This document shows positions 13,733-47,100 of a stretch of DNA of 64,000 nucleotides, one piece after another (the stretch's first letter is position 1; each line of letters opens with the position of its first letter). The DNA comes from Rhodothermales bacterium (GTDB lineage Bacteria > Bacteroidota > Rhodothermia > Rhodothermales > UBA10348): contig JAVJVN010000012.1 in assembly GCA_040221055.1 (NCBI GenBank), positions 174,890-238,889 of the forward strand, in the 5' to 3' direction. The translations under genes and the position numbers were made by a program. The notes beneath the pieces were generated by a model, which did not search any database, was not told where the DNA came from, and worked only from the letters and a program-made list of their open reading frames with translations.

Positions 13733-14173
13733 TTACAGGAAACCGAGTTCCAATTTGGCTTCGTCGGACATCATGTCCGGCGTGAACGGGGGATCGAACG
13801 TGATTTCGACACGGGCATCCCGGACGTGCCGCAAGTGCCGCACGCGCTGCTCCACCTGACCTGGAAGGAACCCGGCAGCCGGGCAGTTCGGGGTGGTCAG
13901 CGTCATGGTGATCAGCACCGTCCGGTCGGGATTGATGTCGACCCCGTAAATGAGGCCCAGATCGTATACGTTGACCGGGATCTCGGGGTCATACACCGTC
14001 TTGATGGCCTCGACGATCTTGGCCTCGAGCTCCTCATCGGTGGGCTCGTCCGAGAGATCGATTTCGACCGATGCGTCATCGCTCTTCGGCGCATTCAATG
14101 CGGAACTGGCATCCACGACATGTCCCGAAGGCGTCTTGCCGTCTTTGGTCGTTTCGGGCTTGGGATCGGTCAT
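13733..14173 (-). CDS. sufT: SufT-like MIP18/DUF59 iron-sulfur assembly protein
   Basis: The protein has 146 residues. About 40 residues of acidic, low-complexity N-terminus precede a MIP18 (DUF59) domain with the family signatures VYDPEIPVNVYDLGLIYGVD and TTPNCPAAGFLPGQVE. The conserved Cys in the second motif is present. SufT proteins help mature Fe-S proteins under high demand. The start overlaps the sufE stop by 4 bases (14170-14173), so it is the last gene of the SUF operon. The usual domain is about 100 residues, so the N-terminal extension is the odd part. Confidence 0.9.
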   Translation of the reverse strand: MTDPKPETTKDGKTPSGHVVDASSALNAPKSDDASVEIDLSDEPTDEELEAKIVEAIKTVYDPEIPVNVYDLGLIYGVDINPDRTVLITMTLTTPNCPAAGFLPGQVEQRVRHLRHVRDARVEITFDPPFTPDMMSDEAKLELGFL

Positions 14174-14598
14174 TCGGATTGGGAGGCTGCAATCGCGGCT
14201 GCATAGAGCCGGATCTGTTTGATCATGCTGTCGAGTCCGTTCTTCCGCGTCGGCGAAAGGTGCTCCTTCATTCCGATCTCATCCAGGAAGGACAGGTCGG
14301 CCGCAGCAACGGATTCTGCGGGCTGGTCATTGAGGACGCGGAGCAGGGCGGCAATGAGGCCGCGGGTAATCTGGGCGTCGGAATCGGCTGTGAAATGGAT
14401 GCGTTGGCCGTGGGGCTCGGCGTGCAACCACACCTGGGCCTGACATCCCTGGATCCGGTAGGTGTCTGTCCGGAAGGCGTCTTCGATGGCCGGTACTGAC
14501 GCCCCCAGGTCTATCAGGTACTGGTATTTGTCCATCCAGTCATCAAACATCGCAAATTCGTCCACGAGCGCACGTGCACGGTCCTGGATCTCGGTCAT
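14170..14598 (-). CDS. sufE: SufE, sulfur acceptor for SufS
   Basis: The protein has 142 residues, full length for the family. The acceptor Cys52 lies in IQGCQAQVWL (codon 14443-14445), and the N-terminal FAMFDDWMDKYQYLIDLG is the usual SufE opening. SufE takes the persulfide sulfur from SufS and passes it to the SufBCD scaffold. The gene overlaps sufS by 4 bases at one end and sufT by 4 bases at the other, which fits translational coupling. Confidence 0.96.
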   Translation of the reverse strand: MTEIQDRARALVDEFAMFDDWMDKYQYLIDLGASVPAIEDAFRTDTYRIQGCQAQVWLHAEPHGQRIHFTADSDAQITRGLIAALLRVLNDQPAESVAAADLSFLDEIGMKEHLSPTRKNGLDSMIKQIRLYAAAIAASQSE

Positions 14599-15818
14599 GA
14601 CAGCATCTTGTGGGCCTTGCGGAGGCCATCGACCAATCGGTCGATTTCGTCCGTCGTATTGTAGAACGCGAAGGATGCTCGGACCGTCCCGGGAATGCCG
14701 AAGCGCTTCATGAGGGGTTGGGTGCAGTGGTGGCCCGTACGGACCGCAATGCCCAGCCGGTCCAGGATGGTGCCGACATCATACGGATGGGCATCACCCA
14801 GAAGGAATGAGACCACCGACACTTTGTCGCGGGCTGTTCCCACAATCCTGAGTCCCGGCAACTCGGTCAGAGCGCGGGTGGCCCGGGCCAGGAGATCCTG
14901 TTCCTGGGTCCGGATCCAGGCATGACCCACGGATTCCACGTAGTCCAGGGCGGCGGCGAATCCGATGGCGCCTGCAATATGGGGCGTGCCCGCCTCGAAC
15001 TTGTGGGGCAGTTCATTGAACGTCGTCCCGCTGAAATCCACCTCTTCGATCATGTCACCGCCACCTTGGTACGGGGGCATGTCGTCCAGCAGGGCCTCCT
15101 TGCCGTACAGTACGCCGAAGCCGGTGGGTCCGAACGCCTTGTGGCTGGAGAAGCAGTAGAAATCGCAGTCCAGGTCCTGGACGTTGACGGGACCATGCGG
15201 CAGGGCCTGGGCACCGTCCAGGAGTACCGGTACCCCGAAGGCGTGTGCATCCGCAATCATCCGCTTCACGGGATTCACGGTACCCAACGTGTTCGATGCG
15301 TGCACCACACCTACGATGGCGACATCGTCTTCCATGAGTGCGCGCTGGTAGTCTTCGTAATCCAACTCCCCGTTCTCCAGTACGTGCACGGCGCGGACGC
15401 GGGCGCCGGTTTCGGCACAGATGAGTTGCCAGGGGACAATGTTGGAGTGGTGCTCCATGGCCGTGAGCAGCACCGTCTTTCCGGGACCCAGATTCGTGCG
15501 ACCCCACGATGATGCCACCAGGTTGATGGCGTCCGTCGTCCCCCGGGTGAATACGATTTCCGAACGGTTGGCGGCCCCGATGTACGACTGGATGCGATCC
15601 CGGGCGGCTTCGAACGCCGTCGTGGCCAACTGACTGAGGGTATGCACACCCCGGTGTACGTTGGCATTCTCCTCCCGGTAATAGTGCGCCATCCGGTCCA
15701 GGACGGCCTGGGGCTTCTGGGCCGTCGCCGCATTGTCCAGGTAGGCCACGGGGTAGCCGTGAACGTGGGTGGCGAGTGCTGGAAAGTCCCGGCGGATATC
15801 GGGAGGGGATGCGATCAC
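14595..15818 (-). CDS. sufS: SufS cysteine desulfurase
   Basis: The protein has 407 residues and is a PLP-dependent class V aminotransferase-fold enzyme that releases sulfur from L-cysteine as an enzyme persulfide. The PLP lysine is K227 in SSHKAFGPTGFG, and the catalytic Cys365 lies in RTGHHCTQP, matching the group II (SufS) type. The start is GTG at 15818, overlapping the sufD stop (GTGA). The position between sufD and sufE is standard for the operon. Confidence 0.97.
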   Translation of the reverse strand: MIASPPDIRRDFPALATHVHGYPVAYLDNAATAQKPQAVLDRMAHYYREENANVHRGVHTLSQLATTAFEAARDRIQSYIGAANRSEIVFTRGTTDAINLVASSWGRTNLGPGKTVLLTAMEHHSNIVPWQLICAETGARVRAVHVLENGELDYEDYQRALMEDDVAIVGVVHASNTLGTVNPVKRMIADAHAFGVPVLLDGAQALPHGPVNVQDLDCDFYCFSSHKAFGPTGFGVLYGKEALLDDMPPYQGGGDMIEEVDFSGTTFNELPHKFEAGTPHIAGAIGFAAALDYVESVGHAWIRTQEQDLLARATRALTELPGLRIVGTARDKVSVVSFLLGDAHPYDVGTILDRLGIAVRTGHHCTQPLMKRFGIPGTVRASFAFYNTTDEIDRLVDGLRKAHKMLS

Positions 15819-17107
15819 AAGGACAGCTGTTCTGTTATGCGTGTGTTCAGGTAGTCGCGCAAGGGCTCGATGGTGACGAGTTCAATCACGTCACGGGCAA
15901 AGGCTTCAATGAGCATGGTGCGGGCGCGCTTCGCCGGAATTCCGCGGCTTTGCAGGTAAAAGAGGGCTTCTTTGTCCAGTTCGCCCGTGGTCGCTCCGTG
16001 ACTGCACTTCACATCGTCCGCGTAGATTTCCAATTCCGGCTTCGCGAAAATCCGGGCGGACCGGTCCAGGAGGATGCTCTTGGAAGACTGGTAGGCATTG
16101 ATCTTCTGGGCATCCTGTCGAACCAGGACCTTGCCGTTGAAAACACCGGTGGAGCCGTCGGCAATGATGCCCTTGAACAACTCGTTCGAGAAGCAATTGG
16201 GCTTGGCGTGATCCACCATCGTGTGATTGTCGATATGGGAACCGTTCCGCGCAATGTAGAGACCGTTCAAATGGGTCTCGCAGTGCTCGGCGTCCGGAAG
16301 GAAATGCAGGTTGTGCCGGACGAGATCGCCACCGAGCGTAATGTGATTGGTGGAGAATACGCTGGACTCGGCCTGATGCACATGCAACGTGTTGACGAAA
16401 CGGGCTTGCGGCTCCCGTTCGAAAATGACCAGGTGCCGGACATTGGCTTCTGCACCCACGAACATCTCCACGACGCGATTTTCGAACGACGTACCGGCAC
16501 CGGCCGGACCGAAGTGCTCAACCACGTGGGCATGCGCGTTGCGGGCGGCCACCAGCAGCACGCGTGGCTGGATGAACCCGTTGGTCGATAGCCGGGAGTG
16601 GTGTATGTACAGCGGTTTGTCCAGGTGCACGCCTTCGGCAACATGGATGAACACGCCATCGTCCGCAAAAGCCGTGGCAAGCGATGCGAATGGATCGGCA
16701 TTCCCGGCTACTGCCTTCGACAGGTACTCCTGGACGAGGGCGGTGTGCGTTTCATACGCCTCCCGGAGGCTCGAGACCGTGACCCCGTCGGGCAGCCCTT
16801 GGAGGTTCGCGTTCATCGGGCGCCCATCCAGCGTGTGGATGTGCCATCCTTCGAAATCCTGAAGGGGGGACGTCGGAGACGTTTCCGGACGATTCAGTTC
16901 GAGGGATGACCCATCGCCGAGCCACTTGGAGACGGGTGTGTACTTGTACGCTTCCGACTTGGCCGCGGGGAAACCGGCCTCGGCGAACTGCTTGATGGCG
17001 CGTCGCCGGTCTACCAGCCAAGGGTCGGTCGTACCGTTTCCGAGCAGTCCGACTTTCTGATCGAAGGACTCGATCAGCGTCGTTTCCAATGATTTTTCCG
17101 TGGTCAT
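15815..17107 (-). CDS. sufD: SufD, Fe-S scaffold complex subunit
   Basis: The protein has 430 residues and is a beta-helix paralogue of SufB. It pairs with SufB and SufC in the SufBC2D scaffold. The C-terminal motif KCSHGATTGELDKEALFYL carries the conserved histidine implicated in cluster assembly, and GIPAKRARTMLIEAFA is typical of the family. The gene lies 2 bases downstream of sufC. Confidence 0.96.
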   Translation of the reverse strand: MTTEKSLETTLIESFDQKVGLLGNGTTDPWLVDRRRAIKQFAEAGFPAAKSEAYKYTPVSKWLGDGSSLELNRPETSPTSPLQDFEGWHIHTLDGRPMNANLQGLPDGVTVSSLREAYETHTALVQEYLSKAVAGNADPFASLATAFADDGVFIHVAEGVHLDKPLYIHHSRLSTNGFIQPRVLLVAARNAHAHVVEHFGPAGAGTSFENRVVEMFVGAEANVRHLVIFEREPQARFVNTLHVHQAESSVFSTNHITLGGDLVRHNLHFLPDAEHCETHLNGLYIARNGSHIDNHTMVDHAKPNCFSNELFKGIIADGSTGVFNGKVLVRQDAQKINAYQSSKSILLDRSARIFAKPELEIYADDVKCSHGATTGELDKEALFYLQSRGIPAKRARTMLIEAFARDVIELVTIEPLRDYLNTRITEQLSL

Positions 17108-17109
17108 GA

Positions 17110-17877
17110 TTATTGAGCGATCATTCCGGTTTCTTCACGGATCCAGTCGTAGCCCCGTTCTTCGAGCTCCAGTGCCAATTCCTTGCCACCCGAGCGCACA
17201 ATGCGGCCACCCACCAGGACGTGGACATGGTCGGGTACGATGTAGTCGAGCAGGCGCTGGTAGTGGGTAATGACCACGAACGAGCGGTTGGCATTGCGCA
17301 ACGAGTTGACGCCATCGGCAACGACACGCAGGGCGTCGATGTCCAGTCCCGAATCCGTTTCATCCAGCACGGCCAACGAGGGATCCAGCATGGCCAACTG
17401 GAAGATCTCGTTGCGCTTCTTTTCACCGCCCGAGAACCCTTCGTTGACTGCACGGGCCTTGAGGGACGGATCCAAGTTGACCAATGCGGCCTTTTCACGC
17501 ATGAGCGCGAGGAACTCGCTGGCCGACAGATCGGGCAGACCACGGTATTCGCGGACCGAAGAAACGGCCTGTTTCAGGAAGTTGGACATCGAGACACCCG
17601 GCAGTTCAACCGGATACTGGAACGCCAGGAAAAGCCCCTTGCGCGCCCGCTCGTCCGCTTCCAACTCCAGGAGGTCGTCCCCCTGGAATGAAATGGTACC
17701 CTCTGTGACTTCGTAGCCGTCACGGCCGGCAAGCACCGATGCGAGCGTACTCTTGCCCGATCCGTTCGGGCCCATGATGGCATGTACTTCACCGGGGCCC
17801 ACCTTCAGGTCCAGGCCTTTCAGGATTTCCGTACCGTCTTCCTCTATGGAGACGTGGAGGTTTTTGATATCCAGCAT
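17110..17877 (-). CDS. sufC: SufC, ABC-type ATPase of the SUF scaffold
   Basis: The start chosen is the ATG at 17877 (MLDIKNLHVSIEEDG), giving 255 residues; a TTG two codons upstream is possible. Walker A is GPNGSGKST, the ABC signature is FSGGEKKR, and Walker B is LAVLDETDSGLDID, which are exact SufC-type motifs. ATP hydrolysis by SufC drives the conformational change in SufB and SufD during cluster assembly. The spacer to sufB (17878-17935) holds an unusual poly-G and CAGGG repeat, annotated separately. Confidence 0.97.
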   Translation of the reverse strand: MLDIKNLHVSIEEDGTEILKGLDLKVGPGEVHAIMGPNGSGKSTLASVLAGRDGYEVTEGTISFQGDDLLELEADERARKGLFLAFQYPVELPGVSMSNFLKQAVSSVREYRGLPDLSASEFLALMREKAALVNLDPSLKARAVNEGFSGGEKKRNEIFQLAMLDPSLAVLDETDSGLDIDALRVVADGVNSLRNANRSFVVITHYQRLLDYIVPDHVHVLVGGRIVRSGGKELALELEERGYDWIREETGMIAQ

Positions 17878-17899
17878 CGTCAACTGATTTGGTTCGAAT

Positions 17900-17934
17900 G
17901 GGGGGGGGGACAGGTCAGGGCAGGGCAGGGCAGG
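17900..17934. repeat. Poly-G tract and CAGGG repeats in the sufB-sufC spacer (G-quadruplex-like)
   Basis: The plus strand has ten consecutive G (17900-17909), then ACAGGTCA, then three GGG runs separated by CA (17918-17930) and a final CAGG. This meets a simple four-run G-quadruplex pattern on the strand that is the template for sufBC, and it is also prone to slippage. The spacer lies between the sufB stop (17936) and the sufC start. Confidence 0.8.
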
Positions 17935-17935
17935 C

Positions 17936-19387
17936 TCAGCCTACACTGCCTTCGAGTTCAATGGCCAACAGATTGCGCGCTTCGACAGCAAATTCCATGG
18001 GCAACTTGGCCAGGATTTCCTTGCAGAATCCGTTCACGATGAGCTTTATGGCATCCGTCTCCGAGATGCCGCGCTGCTGGCAGTAGAAAATCTGGTCTTC
18101 TCCGACCTTCGACGTCGTGGCCTCGTGTTCGACCTTGGCCGTAGGGTTGTTGATTTCCAGATACGGGAAGGTGTGTGCGCCACAACGGTCGCCCAGCAAC
18201 ATCGAGTCGCACTGGGAGAAGTTGCGGGCATTCTCGGCACCCCGGTTGATCTTGACCAGTCCCCGGTAGGAGTTCTGGCTCTGTCCGCCTGAGATGCCCT
18301 TTGAAATGATGGTGGACGTGGTGTTCTTGCCGATGTGGATCATCTTGGTCCCCGTATCGGCCTGTTGATGTCCCTTCGTGAAGGCCACGCTGTAGAATTC
18401 GCCCACGGAGTTGTCACCCTTCAGGATGACCGACGGATACTTCCACGTGATGGCGCTGCCGGTTTCGAGCTGGGTCCAGGAAATCTTCGACCCGCTGCCT
18501 TCGCAGATGCCGCGCTTGGTCACGAAGTTGTATACACCACCTTTGCCCTCCTTGCTGCCGGGATACCAGTTCTGGATGGTCGAGTACTTCACTTCGGCGT
18601 CCTTGTGGGCAATGATCTCCACAACCGCGGCATGCAACTGGTTTTCGTCCCGGGACGGTGCCGTGCACCCCTCCAGATAACTCACATAGGAACCTTCGTC
18701 GGCCACGATGAGCGTGCGCTCGAATTGTCCCGTTCCCGCCTCATTTATCCGGAAGTACGTGGACAATTCCATGGGGCAACGGACGCCCTTCGGGATATAG
18801 CAGAACGATCCGTCGGAGAATACCGCGGAGTTGAGGGCGGCATACAGGTTGTCGGTTCGGGGAACGACGCTTCCCAGGTACTTGCGGACGAGTTCGGGAT
18901 GCTCCTGGACGGCTTCGCCGAATGAGCAGAAAATGACACCTTTCTCCGCCAGTTCCTTCTTGAAGGTCGTCGTCACGGATACGGAGTCCATGACCACGTC
19001 AACCGCGACCCCGGCCAAACGCTTCTGCTCCATCAACGGAATGCCCAGCCGATTGAAGGTGTCAATGAGCTGTGGATCAACCTCGTCCAGGCTGGAGAGG
19101 GTGGGCTTCTTCTTCGGAGACGACCAGTAGGAAATGGACTGGAAGTCGATTTCAGCGATCTTGAGGTGCGCCCAGGTCGGAATCTTGTTGTCCTCGAGCA
19201 GGGACATGAAATGGTCCAACGCCTTGAGCCGCCATTCCAGCAACCACTCCGGTTCGTTTTTCCGGGCGGAGATGTACCGGACCGTTTCTTCGCTCAGCCC
19301 ATTGGCGGCCTTGTCCGACTCGATGTCGGTTACGAATCCGTATTTGTACTCGGAATCTGCAACTTCTTGAAGGAACTCTGTGCTCAT
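17936..19387 (-). CDS. sufB: SufB, Fe-S scaffold protein
   Basis: The protein has 483 residues, full length, and is the site where Fe-S clusters are built in the SufBC2D complex. Family blocks are clear: [40 protein letters not shown], and the C-terminal [11 protein letters not shown] with its conserved Cys. It is the first gene of the minus-strand operon sufB-C-D-S-E-T. No Rrf2-family (IscR/SufR) regulator gene is adjacent. Upstream is a 115-base divergent spacer shared with the A-type carrier gene at 19503. Confidence 0.97.
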
Positions 19388-29172: not shown

Positions 29173-31425
29173 TCAGCGGCGAAGAACCGCGACTGGCAAT
29201 GGCTGACGCCACGTGGGGGCGTCCAAGAGGCTGACGAGAACGAAGTGGATGCCCGCCGGGACGATGGTCCCCCGGTCGTCCAGGCCATCCCATCGGATGG
29301 CTGTGGTTCCGGACAGGGGGCGGGCCGCCGTGACGTGCCGAACCGGGTGCCCGTACGCATTGTAAACCGTGATTGTGGCCATTCTCGGGCCCATGTCCTC
29401 GGGGATCCGGACCACGATGTGCGTGGATGCACCCAGGTCAGGATGATCAGGATAGAACGACCGGGGCTCCAGGTGGGCGCTTATGCCACCGTCGGGCACC
29501 GCCGGGGCGGCTCCAGTCGGAGGGAGCCCCGCCACACGGCCGGGTGTGGCGCCGTCCACGTGGGTGCTGGTCTCCAGCTGGCTCCATCCGGATTGCAGGC
29601 GGCGCCGTTCGAGGGACCGCCCCAGCGTGACCGCCACCATCGGGTGGTGGTCTTCCGGTCCATAACGGTCGCTGGACAGAACACGACCGTCCCTGTCCAC
29701 CAGGATCAATGCCCGACCGTCATTCCGGAGACCCAGGGATGCACGGACCGGAACGAGGAAGTCCGTGGCCGGCGTTTCCGGCCAGATCCGCGCCAGATAA
29801 TCACGGACGTTCCCGTGGTTGACGATCTCTTGGTCGGTCACGTGTCCGGGGATTCCGACAATGAGCAGGGTGCTGTCCGGAGGCAACCGGAGGGGTTGGT
29901 ACCCGAGCCGCACCGAATCCCGATCGCCCCGTTCGTCGGGGGCATCCAGCAGCACCATGCCGAGTATATCCACCGGCTCCCGGCTTTGGTTGACCCACTC
30001 CAGGAAGGCGGTCTGATCCGTCCGGTTGTCATGGGCGTCAATGAGGGGGTGGTACATCACTTCGGTCAGCACCAACGGGGGCGGGTCGGTGCTTGGCGTG
30101 GGGGGCGCGGCGCGGCGTCTCAGGTCCCGGTCCGCATCCGTGCCGGGCGTGGCGGGTGGCACCAGCGAGGAGGCCCAGTCCCGCGCCGCGCCCCCCACGC
30201 GTCGGAGCGAACGGTCGGTGTGGCTCCGGAAACGCCCATCTTCCAGATCGGGATGGATCACCACGGAGTCGATGACGATCGTGGCATCCCGGAGCACCAG
30301 GGTTTCCCCGGTTGCCAGCAGATCCACATCCACAACGTGCACCGCTCCCGGCGGAAGCAGGAGGGGGGCCTCTTCCGATGCCAGCCGCGTGTCCGATCGT
30401 ACCGTCGACAATGCGGTCTGTCGCAATGTGAGGGGCCATTCCGCATCCACGACCAACTCCACGAACTCCACCGCTCCCCTGGACTGGACCTCGGAGATCA
30501 TGAGGTCACCCGGCGAGGGAGGAATGTGCATTGGGGCGCGGACGGTGCCGGCACGGTTTCCGGACAGGTCCACCAAGCCGGTGATGTCCACCTGGTCTGG
30601 CGCCCGGTTGGGTGCGGGTTGTTGTCCCGGCCACCATCCGGATGGAGCCAGGGCCACCAGCGTGGAGCAGACGGTCTCATCGGGCACCGCGCAGGACAGC
30701 GGCAAAGGGTCCACTGCCGGGATGTCCGGAACGGGGGTGAGGGCGGGGGGCTCCGGGGCCGACGGGGCAATCGGCTCATCCACGTGGACCAGGATGCGAT
30801 CGGGCGGCACCCACTCCACACCCAGGATGCGGGGAGCCGTACGGTCGTCAACATAGGTCGCATTGCGAAGGCCGGGCGTACCCGGCGGAGCGGTGGATGT
30901 GGCCCAGGAAGATGCGAGCGTTCCCGGCAGGACCGGGGAAATCCGCTCCCGACTCGTACCCCGTACGACATCGGCTGCCGTCCATCCGGCGCGATCCACG
31001 ACATGGCCGTCGACCGCGACGAACAGGGAGTCTCCTCCATTGTTGAGTGTCGGCCACGGCCGGAGTTGAATCAACAGCGCCTGGGCAGGCAGGGGACCGT
31101 GGCGTCGCACGAAGGCCAGCGTATCGGGCGTCACCACGACATATTGCCCCGGTATCATGTAGCCCGCTTCGTCCGGAAACACGCGCCAGGCGGCGGTCCC
31201 GTCGCGGATGGCCAACCGGTTTCCAACCAGCGGGGCCGATCCCCCCACGAGCAGTTCAATGAATTCCACGCCGTCCGTATCCGGAATGGCCAGGTATTCA
31301 TTCAGCGTGACGCGAGCGACGGGTGGAGAAGCTGGATGGAGCGCCGTCAGCCACCCGCCGATATGCACGGCGAGCACGATCGCCAGCAGGGTGGGCATGA
31401 TCGACAGGGACGGGAGCAGCGACAT
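29173..31425 (-). CDS. Exported lamin-tail-domain protein with FlgD-like Ig C-terminus
   Basis: The protein has 750 residues. A hydrophobic N-terminus (LLPSLSIMPTLLAIVLAVHI) is a signal or anchor. Lamin-tail-like openings occur three times: VTLNEYLAIPDTDGVEFIEL near 40, DLMISEVQSRGAVEFVELVV near 310, and PLVLTEVMYHP near 455. The last 82 residues are a FlgD-like Ig domain (ITVYNAYGHPVRHV, then IRWDGLDDRGTIVPAGIHFV), which in this phylum often serves as a secretion or surface-attachment end. The function is unknown; an envelope or extracellular role is inferred. Confidence 0.8.
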   Translation of the reverse strand: MSLLPSLSIMPTLLAIVLAVHIGGWLTALHPASPPVARVTLNEYLAIPDTDGVEFIELLVGGSAPLVGNRLAIRDGTAAWRVFPDEAGYMIPGQYVVVTPDTLAFVRRHGPLPAQALLIQLRPWPTLNNGGDSLFVAVDGHVVDRAGWTAADVVRGTSRERISPVLPGTLASSWATSTAPPGTPGLRNATYVDDRTAPRILGVEWVPPDRILVHVDEPIAPSAPEPPALTPVPDIPAVDPLPLSCAVPDETVCSTLVALAPSGWWPGQQPAPNRAPDQVDITGLVDLSGNRAGTVRAPMHIPPSPGDLMISEVQSRGAVEFVELVVDAEWPLTLRQTALSTVRSDTRLASEEAPLLLPPGAVHVVDVDLLATGETLVLRDATIVIDSVVIHPDLEDGRFRSHTDRSLRRVGGAARDWASSLVPPATPGTDADRDLRRRAAPPTPSTDPPPLVLTEVMYHPLIDAHDNRTDQTAFLEWVNQSREPVDILGMVLLDAPDERGDRDSVRLGYQPLRLPPDSTLLIVGIPGHVTDQEIVNHGNVRDYLARIWPETPATDFLVPVRASLGLRNDGRALILVDRDGRVLSSDRYGPEDHHPMVAVTLGRSLERRRLQSGWSQLETSTHVDGATPGRVAGLPPTGAAPAVPDGGISAHLEPRSFYPDHPDLGASTHIVVRIPEDMGPRMATITVYNAYGHPVRHVTAARPLSGTTAIRWDGLDDRGTIVPAGIHFVLVSLLDAPTWRQPLPVAVLRR

Positions 31426-44146: not shown

Positions 44147-47100
44147 GGTGTGCGTCCGGGTTTGGGTGGGAGGGTGGCAGTGGGCGGGAGGCCGGGTTTG
44201 GACGGTGGGCCGGCCGCAGGAGGGAGGCCGGTTTTGCCGGGTTCTTCGGGCGACATCTCCGCGCGCTTGGCCAGCGATTCATAGCGCTTCCACTTTTCGT
44301 TCACATTCGTCTGGGCGTGCCGGGCAAACCGGGCCGCCTGATCCGGATTGATCTTGGTCAGGATGCGGTAACGGTTTTCGTTGTACAGGTACTCCGTGAG
44401 CGGGATGGACGGCTTCTTCGAGTCGAGCTGGAATGGATTTCGTCTCTCTTCCTGCAACCGGGGGTCGAAGCGGTAGAGCGGCCAGTGGCCCGACCGTGTG
44501 GCCAGGTCCTGTTGCTCAAGCCCCTTCGTCATGTCTATGCCATGTGCAATGCAATGGCTGTAGGCTATGATCAGGGAAGGCCCGTCGTAGGCTTCGGCTT
44601 CCCGGAACGCCTTGATGGTCTGGTTGTCATTGGCGCCCATGGCGACTTGGGCCACATAGACATACCCGTAGTTCACGGCAATCAGGCCGAGGTCTTTCTT
44701 GGGCATGGCCTTGCCTCCGGCGGCAAACTTGGCCACGGCCCCGAGTCCGGTCGCCTTCGAGGCTTGTCCACCCGTGTTGGAATAGACCTCGGTATCCAGC
44801 ACGAGTACGTTCACATTCCGTCCGCTGGCCAGCACGTGATCCAGCCCGCCGAAACCGATGTCATACGCCCAGCCGTCCCCGCCGATAATCCACACACTGC
44901 GGGGTACGAGCGCATCGGCCACCGACATCAGATCCCGAGCCGCGGCGGTGCCGATCGGGCTCAACCGGGTTTTCAGGTCCCGGATCCGATCCCGTTGGGC
45001 GGCAATCTCTTCCTCTGAGATCGGCTGGGCGTCCAGGAGCGCCTGGACTACGCCCGAACCCAACGGCTCGCGCAACCGCCCCAGCAGCTCCCGGGCATAT
45101 TCGGCCTGTTTGTCGAGGGAAATCCGCATGCCCAGACCGAACTCCGCGTTGTCTTCGAACAGAGAGTTGTTCCACGCCGGACCCCGGCCATCCCGGTTCC
45201 TGGCCCATGGGGTCGTCGGCAGGTTGCCGCCATAAATGGAGGAGCAGCCCGTGGCGTTGGCTACGACCATGCGGTCCCCGAACAACTGGGTGGCCAGTTT
45301 CAGGTACGGGGTTTCGCCGCATCCGGAGCATGCGCTCGAGAACTCGAACAGGGGCTCCATGAGTTGCACATCCTTCACCTTCGAGAACGACAGCGGGGAC
45401 GTCCGGGAAATCGGGTCGAGGGTGGTGAAGAACTCCCAGTGCTCCGTGGATTGGTCGGTATTCGGAATCATGTTCAGGGCTTTGCGGCCCGCGTGGGATT
45501 TGTCCTTGGCCGGACAGACCTCGACGCACAGCTGGCATCCGGTACAATCCTCGGATGACACCTGCAGCGTATACGCATGGTCTTCGAGGCCGCGCCAGGA
45601 GGCCTCCAGGGACTGGAATCCCTCCGGAGAACCGGCCAACAATGCGTTCGGGACCACATTGGCCCGTATGACCGCATGCGGACAGACCAGGACACACTTT
45701 CCGCATTGGATGCACAGATCCGGATCCCACTCCGGGATTTCCATTGCGATGTTCCGTTTCTCCCACTGGGTGGTCCCGCTGGGATACGTTCCGTCCACCG
45801 GCAAGGTGCTGACCGGGAGGTCGTCTCCACGACCCGCAATCATCTCGGCCGTGACGGATTGCACAAAAGAGGGAGCACGGCTCGGCACCGGGGGGCGTAG
45901 TCCGGCCATCGACGTGGCGGTTCCGGGAACGGTCACTTCGAACAGGTGGCTGATGGCGGCATCCACGGCCTCGTTGTTCTGGCGGACAATGGCTTCTCCG
46001 CGCTTGCCGTAGGTCTTGCGGATGTAGGCCTTGATCTGGGCGATGGCCTCGTCGGGTGGGAGAATGCCGGCAAGGTGGAAGAAGGCCGCCTGCATGATGG
46101 TATTTATCCGGACGCCGAGGTTCAACTCCGCAGCCAATGCATAGGCATCCACCACGAAGAAGCGGAGTCGACGCTGGATGATCTGTTCCTGCACGGGACG
46201 GGGCAGGTGACTCCAGACCGTTTCGGGACCATGCGGACTGTTCAGTAGGAACGTACCACCCTCAGCCGCCATTTCCAGCGTGTTGTACCGCTCCAGGAAG
46301 CCGAACTGGTGAACCGCCACGAACTGGGCCCGGTCAATCAACCATGGGGCATTGATGGGATCCGGTCCGAACCGGAGGTGGGAGATGGTACGGGCGCCTG
46401 CCTTTTTCGAGTCATAGACGAAGTATCCCTGGGCATGGAACGGGGTCTGTTCACCGATGATCTTGATGGAGTTCTTGTTCGCACCCACCGTGCCGTCCGA
46501 CCCGAGTCCCCAGAACACCGCCTGCGTGACCGAAGCGCCCAGGATGTCAAACGACGGATCCCATGAAAGACTGTTGTTCGATACGTCGTCGTGGATGCCG
46601 ACGACGAATGGATGTGGGGGTTTTTCCTCCCGGAGGGCTTCGAACACGGCTTTCACCATGGCCGGCGTGAATTCCTTGGAGGACAGGCCATACCGACCGC
46701 CGATCATCCGGGGCATGGGCGTGCCTCGGGAGGCCAGCGCCGTGACGATGTCCTGGAACAGCGGTTCGCCGTTGGAGCCGGGCTCCTTGGTGCGGTCCAG
46801 AACCGCCATATCCGTGACTGATTCCGGCAGGACGTCCAGGAAGTGGGAGGTCGAGAAGGGACGGTACAGCCGGACGGTCACAACGCCCACGTCTTCACCG
46901 TGCGCATGCAGCCAGGTGGCCGTCTCCCGGGCCGTTTCCGCCCCAGAACCCATGATGACCACCACGCGCGTGGCGGTCGGCGAACCGGTGTATTCGAAGG
47001 GCCGATAAGTCCGACCCGTAAGTGCGGCAAACCGGTCCATCTGTTCACAGACAGCGGAAATGCACTGGGTATAGAACGGGTTCACGGATTCCCGCGCCTG

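Follow-up and report, generated by a model that had tools for sequence, protein, structure and literature searches.

Organisation of the sufB-sufC junction

The sequence analysed was a 64-kb window (the whole stretch of DNA examined) of an assembly of 3.32 Mb in 22 contigs that is 99.5% complete. The gene order on the minus strand is sufB, a 58-nt spacer, sufC, 2 nt, sufD, and then overlapping sufS, sufE-like and sufT-like genes. sufB and sufC were identified by TIGR01980 and TIGR01978, both over their cut-offs. SufB, SufC, SufD and SufS each exceed the NCBIfam cut-off of their own family, and the SufE-like and SufT-like proteins score under their NCBIfam cut-offs. Among the closest named matches of SufC are one MAG from the Rhodothermales and one from an unclassified member of the Bacteroidetes. 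From sufB through the last suf gene, the sufB-sufC spacer is the only sizeable untranslated gap. The features are as follows.

17936-19387, minus strand: sufB, the upstream gene (TIGR01980, over cut-off)
17878-17935, minus strand: sufB-sufC spacer, 58 nt, rich in C and poor in G when read as mRNA (C 0.48, G 0.17)
17911-17935, plus strand: pentanucleotide array, CAGGG x4.8 by Tandem Repeats Finder (17911-17934), five NCCTG units in the mRNA sense
17900-17909, plus strand: G10 tract (C10 in the mRNA), read from the sequence
17924-17950, minus strand: predicted mRNA hairpin around the sufB stop codon, built with the array, -18.2 kcal/mol
17110-17877, minus strand: sufC, the downstream gene, ATG start (NCBIfam profile over cut-off)
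15815-17107, minus strand: sufD, 2 nt past sufC (NCBIfam profile over cut-off)
13733-15818, minus strand: sufS, sufE-like and sufT-like genes, each with a 4-nt overlap

The original prediction placed a ten-G tract and a CAGGG repeat in this spacer, and both are present there. On the plus strand the ten G are followed by ACAGGTCAGGGCAGGGCAGGGCAGG. The array was scored 41 by Tandem Repeats Finder, which reported 23 arrays in the window with scores from 30 to 59. Read in the mRNA sense, the spacer consists of the five NCCTG units, a T, the C10 run and another 22 nt, and then the sufC ATG. Its contig is 309,373 bp long, and the tract is at position 192,789.

Positions 17700-18200 were scanned for promoters and terminators. 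No sigma-70-like promoter was found there, in the spacer or around it, by a scan that does not cover Bacteroidota-type or other promoter types. No terminator-like site was found on the operon strand; the two terminator-like matches in this region are on the plus strand and inside genes, so that a terminator between sufB and sufC was rejected.

Occurrence of the repeats in the genome and in relatives

Rarity was assessed against composition. Of 200 dinucleotide-shuffled versions of the window, 87 had a longest G/C run of at least 10, so that a run of this length could arise from composition alone. The real DNA contained 2 runs of at least 7 (20.3 expected from a first-order Markov count) and 1 of at least 8 (6.1 expected); long G/C runs are thus depleted here, and G10 stands out from its background. 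The longest perfect period-5 stretch was 19 bp, and none of 200 shuffles went beyond 17, in a test restricted to period 5, which was picked after the repeat had been seen. Length beyond what composition predicts, as expected of a simple sequence repeat, was therefore found for the 19-bp stretch, and G10 fell inside the shuffle range in DNA whose real runs are depleted.

Across the genome, CAGGGCAGGGCAGG was found in the sufB-sufC spacer only, as 2 overlapping matches; a genome-wide CAGGG family was rejected on this uniqueness. Exact-length G/C runs numbered 13 of length 8 and 4 of length 9, contig ends counted. All ten of the length-8 and length-9 runs that were inspected away from contig ends (C20:75867 and C22:23487 left out) sit in stop-free frames of at least 150 codons. 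Farther than 200 bp from contig ends, the 3.3-Mb assembly contains two runs of at least 10, the sufB-sufC G10 and one at C3:6942.

The latter is a C10 tract (L092:743-752, G000:C3:6942-6951) just inside the start of a signal-peptide-like gene. A Peptidase_S74 (chaperone of endosialidase) domain is encoded by the frame downstream of it (PF13884, E 5.7e-13), and in the assembled sequence the long frame is not in register with the start codon. The locus looks like a phase-variable surface gene. In the congener G002, a C10 run (G002:C57, L147:980-989) lies directly past ATGTCTGAAGA, a candidate gene start, and is another candidate slippage tract. Less than 100 bp from the ends of many contigs of this genome and of the congeners, long G and C runs face each other in noisy sequence (L089, L090, L091, L094, L095 and L096 in this genome, G000; L141, L149, L151 and L158 in congeners). 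Such pairs could be artefacts of sequencing, or strong hairpins that really exist and interrupt the assembly. At L097:720-763 (G000:C22, ~160 bp from the contig end) G7C7 precedes a C13 run, and the predicted start of a secreted protein lies downstream of them; this is possibly a hairpin of the same G-run/C-run kind that is not at the extreme end of its contig.

Spacers of relatives were taken from 110 loci, 80 from a genome collection and 30 from the 37 sufC matches in 41 genomes (this genome among the 41); the other seven matches were without a locus and were left out. Eight loci lacked a neighbouring sufB match at 50% identity or better and were excluded, as were 15 whose gap was 0 or less or more than 250 nt. 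The remaining 87 spacers (gap 1-250 nt) gave 84 distinct ones, identical spacers being counted once as some genomes were present in both collections. The rarity of the tract at this position, which had been proposed, was borne out: the longest G/C run was 10 here, and none of the other 83 exceeded 6. A period-5 stretch of at least 12 occurred in 0 of those 83.

The spacers of three congeners, G001, G002 and G003, measure 33, 34 and 32 nt (C 0.45, 0.38 and 0.41; G 0.06, 0.09 and 0.06), and none of the three contains a G10-like run or a pentanucleotide array. Close relatives thus differ in copy number, array and G10 both being absent from the congeners, in a comparison between species only. It fits the earlier suggestion that the tract is open to slippage. 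A conserved regulatory role was not supported, as none of the other 83 distinct spacers, the three congeners among them, has a similar tract; with no G/C run longer than 6 in any of the 83, a conserved regulatory element of the suf operon was rejected. A C-rich, G-poor sufB-sufC gap of more than 25 nt is a genus-wide trait.

Relative to the congeners the spacer is longer by 24 to 26 nt. The five-unit array is 25 nt, and 58 minus 25 is 33. This match of lengths is suggestive, and it could be a coincidence, because alignment within the spacer is unreliable.

Alternative readings of the spacer

An error of assembly or sequencing, in the length of G10 or in the tract itself, would be in keeping with the position of the other runs of at least 10, all of which, C3:6942 aside, are no more than 200 bp from a contig end; many of them form G-run/C-run pairs where the sequence is noisy. 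G10, however, is deep in its contig, is flanked by intact sufB and sufC, and is short enough to be spanned by a single read. No C run faces it, and it was therefore rejected as one of the contig-end pairs. An artefact is hardly to be expected, though the exact length could be off by a base or two. The spacer might instead act through its RNA. C excess is linked to Rho loading, and a C-rich, G-poor untranslated RNA could admit Rho and lower transcription into sufC. The genome encodes two matches over cut-off to the Rho RNA-binding domain, C minus G is 18 in the 60-nt segment at the spacer (a value attained by 181 of 63,941 minus-strand segments), and the excess is common to the congeners. On approximate scripted gene calls the 64-kb window has 16 spacers of 15-150 nt between same-strand genes, among which this one ranks second by C minus G. 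As the untranslated stretch is only 58 nt between translated genes (32-34 nt in congeners), such a polarity site is highly improbable. We also assign a very low probability to an insulating hairpin, in which the repeat would pair with the 3' end of sufB, cut reinitiation and make translation of sufC independent of sufB. Stable structures just past stop codons lower reinitiation in a synthetic E. coli operon, and such structures are enriched at gaps >25 nt (PMC7518266). The predicted hairpin is only 1.4 sd below mononucleotide shuffles (-14.0 kcal/mol, sd 2.9); its stem encloses the sufB stop codon, a position covered by the terminating ribosome, whereas the described structure sits past the stop; and it is absent in the three congeners. 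Neither the Rho site nor the hairpin is supported by conservation of the repeat.

At the level of DNA, a quadruplex formed by G10 and three GGG runs could slow RNA polymerase past sufB and reduce transcripts of sufC and downstream genes. Of the proposed template-strand quadruplex, the strand assignment held: the operon is on the minus strand and the G runs are on the plus strand, so the G-rich strand is the template at this spacer. The motif fared less well. It scores 2.24 by G4Hunter over 25 nt, the second highest locus in the window, and matches a G3-run motif with loops up to 12, but one loop of 8 nt takes it outside the canonical (G3+N1-7)x4 form. It has no equivalent in the other 83 distinct spacers, and G3 runs on the relatives' template strands are no more frequent than in shuffled spacers, so that an excess there was rejected. 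In E. coli a quadruplex repeat whose G-rich strand was the nontemplate one, the orientation in which transcription forms the quadruplex, mutated at a rate 354 times higher than when it was inverted (PMC7023247). The orientation here is that of low transcription-linked instability; by analogy it would remove the driver described there and would still allow a block to the polymerase. Attenuation by such a structure is considered very unlikely. Canonical motifs (loops 1-7), stronger than the one in the spacer, occur on the plus strand of the window at 30733-30767 and 44158-44196. The spacer might, lastly, be a length-variable tuner, slippage in C10 and in the array altering distance, stop-codon hairpin and template quadruplex and giving heritable, reversible variation of SufC dose within a population. 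A change of length would switch neither a frame nor the spacing of a sigma-70-like promoter, since the tract is between the sufB stop and the sufC start and no promoter of that type was found; a SufB-SufC fusion through slippage was rejected, the sufB stop being upstream of the tract. We hold a tuner of this kind to be most improbable.

Probable repeat growth in an untranslated gap

The repeats are most likely a species-level simple-sequence expansion, that is, ordinary repeat growth in the untranslated sufB-sufC gap with a small effect at most. Three observations count against this reading (the stop-codon hairpin, the G4Hunter score and the C excess), and any of them could give an effect. Apart from this expansion the genus has spacers of 32-34 nt, whose mRNA is already rich in C and poor in G. 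Here a pentanucleotide would have been repeated up to five copies (+25 nt) and the C run would have grown to ten, with replication slippage the most likely source of both. Such an expansion could persist in a spacer that carries neither a gene nor conserved sequence and in which no sigma-70-like promoter is detectable, its effect being probably near neutral. C-rich, G-poor RNA would also keep the sufC start accessible. Between -30 and +30 of sufC the predicted mRNA structure is moderate, at -6.6 kcal/mol (-3.5 to -6.2 in congeners).

The conserved feature is the gap itself, at >25 nt. In E. coli and Haloferax volcanii, with six gene pairs examined, reinitiation all but disappears at gaps of ~20 nt (PMC10666635), and independent downstream initiation is expected for gaps above ~20-25 nt (PMC10666635, PMC7518266). 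With a gap of more than 25 nt, sufC is thus probably initiated independently of sufB, in contrast to sufD and the later genes, which nearly touch or overlap. The sufC-sufD junction is tight (2 or -4 nt) here and in the congeners and wider in a number of other family members, which counts against a general rule. The E. coli complex has SufB:SufC:SufD at 1:2:1 (PMC6006206), and by analogy a ratio of the SufBC2D type would make independent initiation of sufC sensible.

If neutral, the tract is a small example of repeats being tolerated as they grow in an operon's untranslated gap. As a tuner of SufC dose it would be an unusual case, a contingency locus within a core operon for Fe-S assembly, and the present evidence does not lead in that direction.

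Three known systems were compared with the locus. The ribosome termination structure (PMC7518266) resembles it in that a stable mRNA hairpin is predicted at a stop codon and a gap >25 nt comes after it, and differs in that the hairpin here encloses the stop instead of following it, is weak against shuffles and is absent in the three congeners. An intramolecular DNA G-quadruplex motif is resembled in that, within 31 nt, a single strand carries at least four runs of three or more G, and in the high G4Hunter score, whereas the 8-nt loop departs from the usual rule of 1-7 and the motif is predicted only and not conserved. Intergenic slipped-strand mispairing loci differ in that here no promoter or frame was found for length to switch, in a locus known from one genome per species; the likeness to them is a homopolymer of 10 and a short noncoding tandem array, both of species-specific length.
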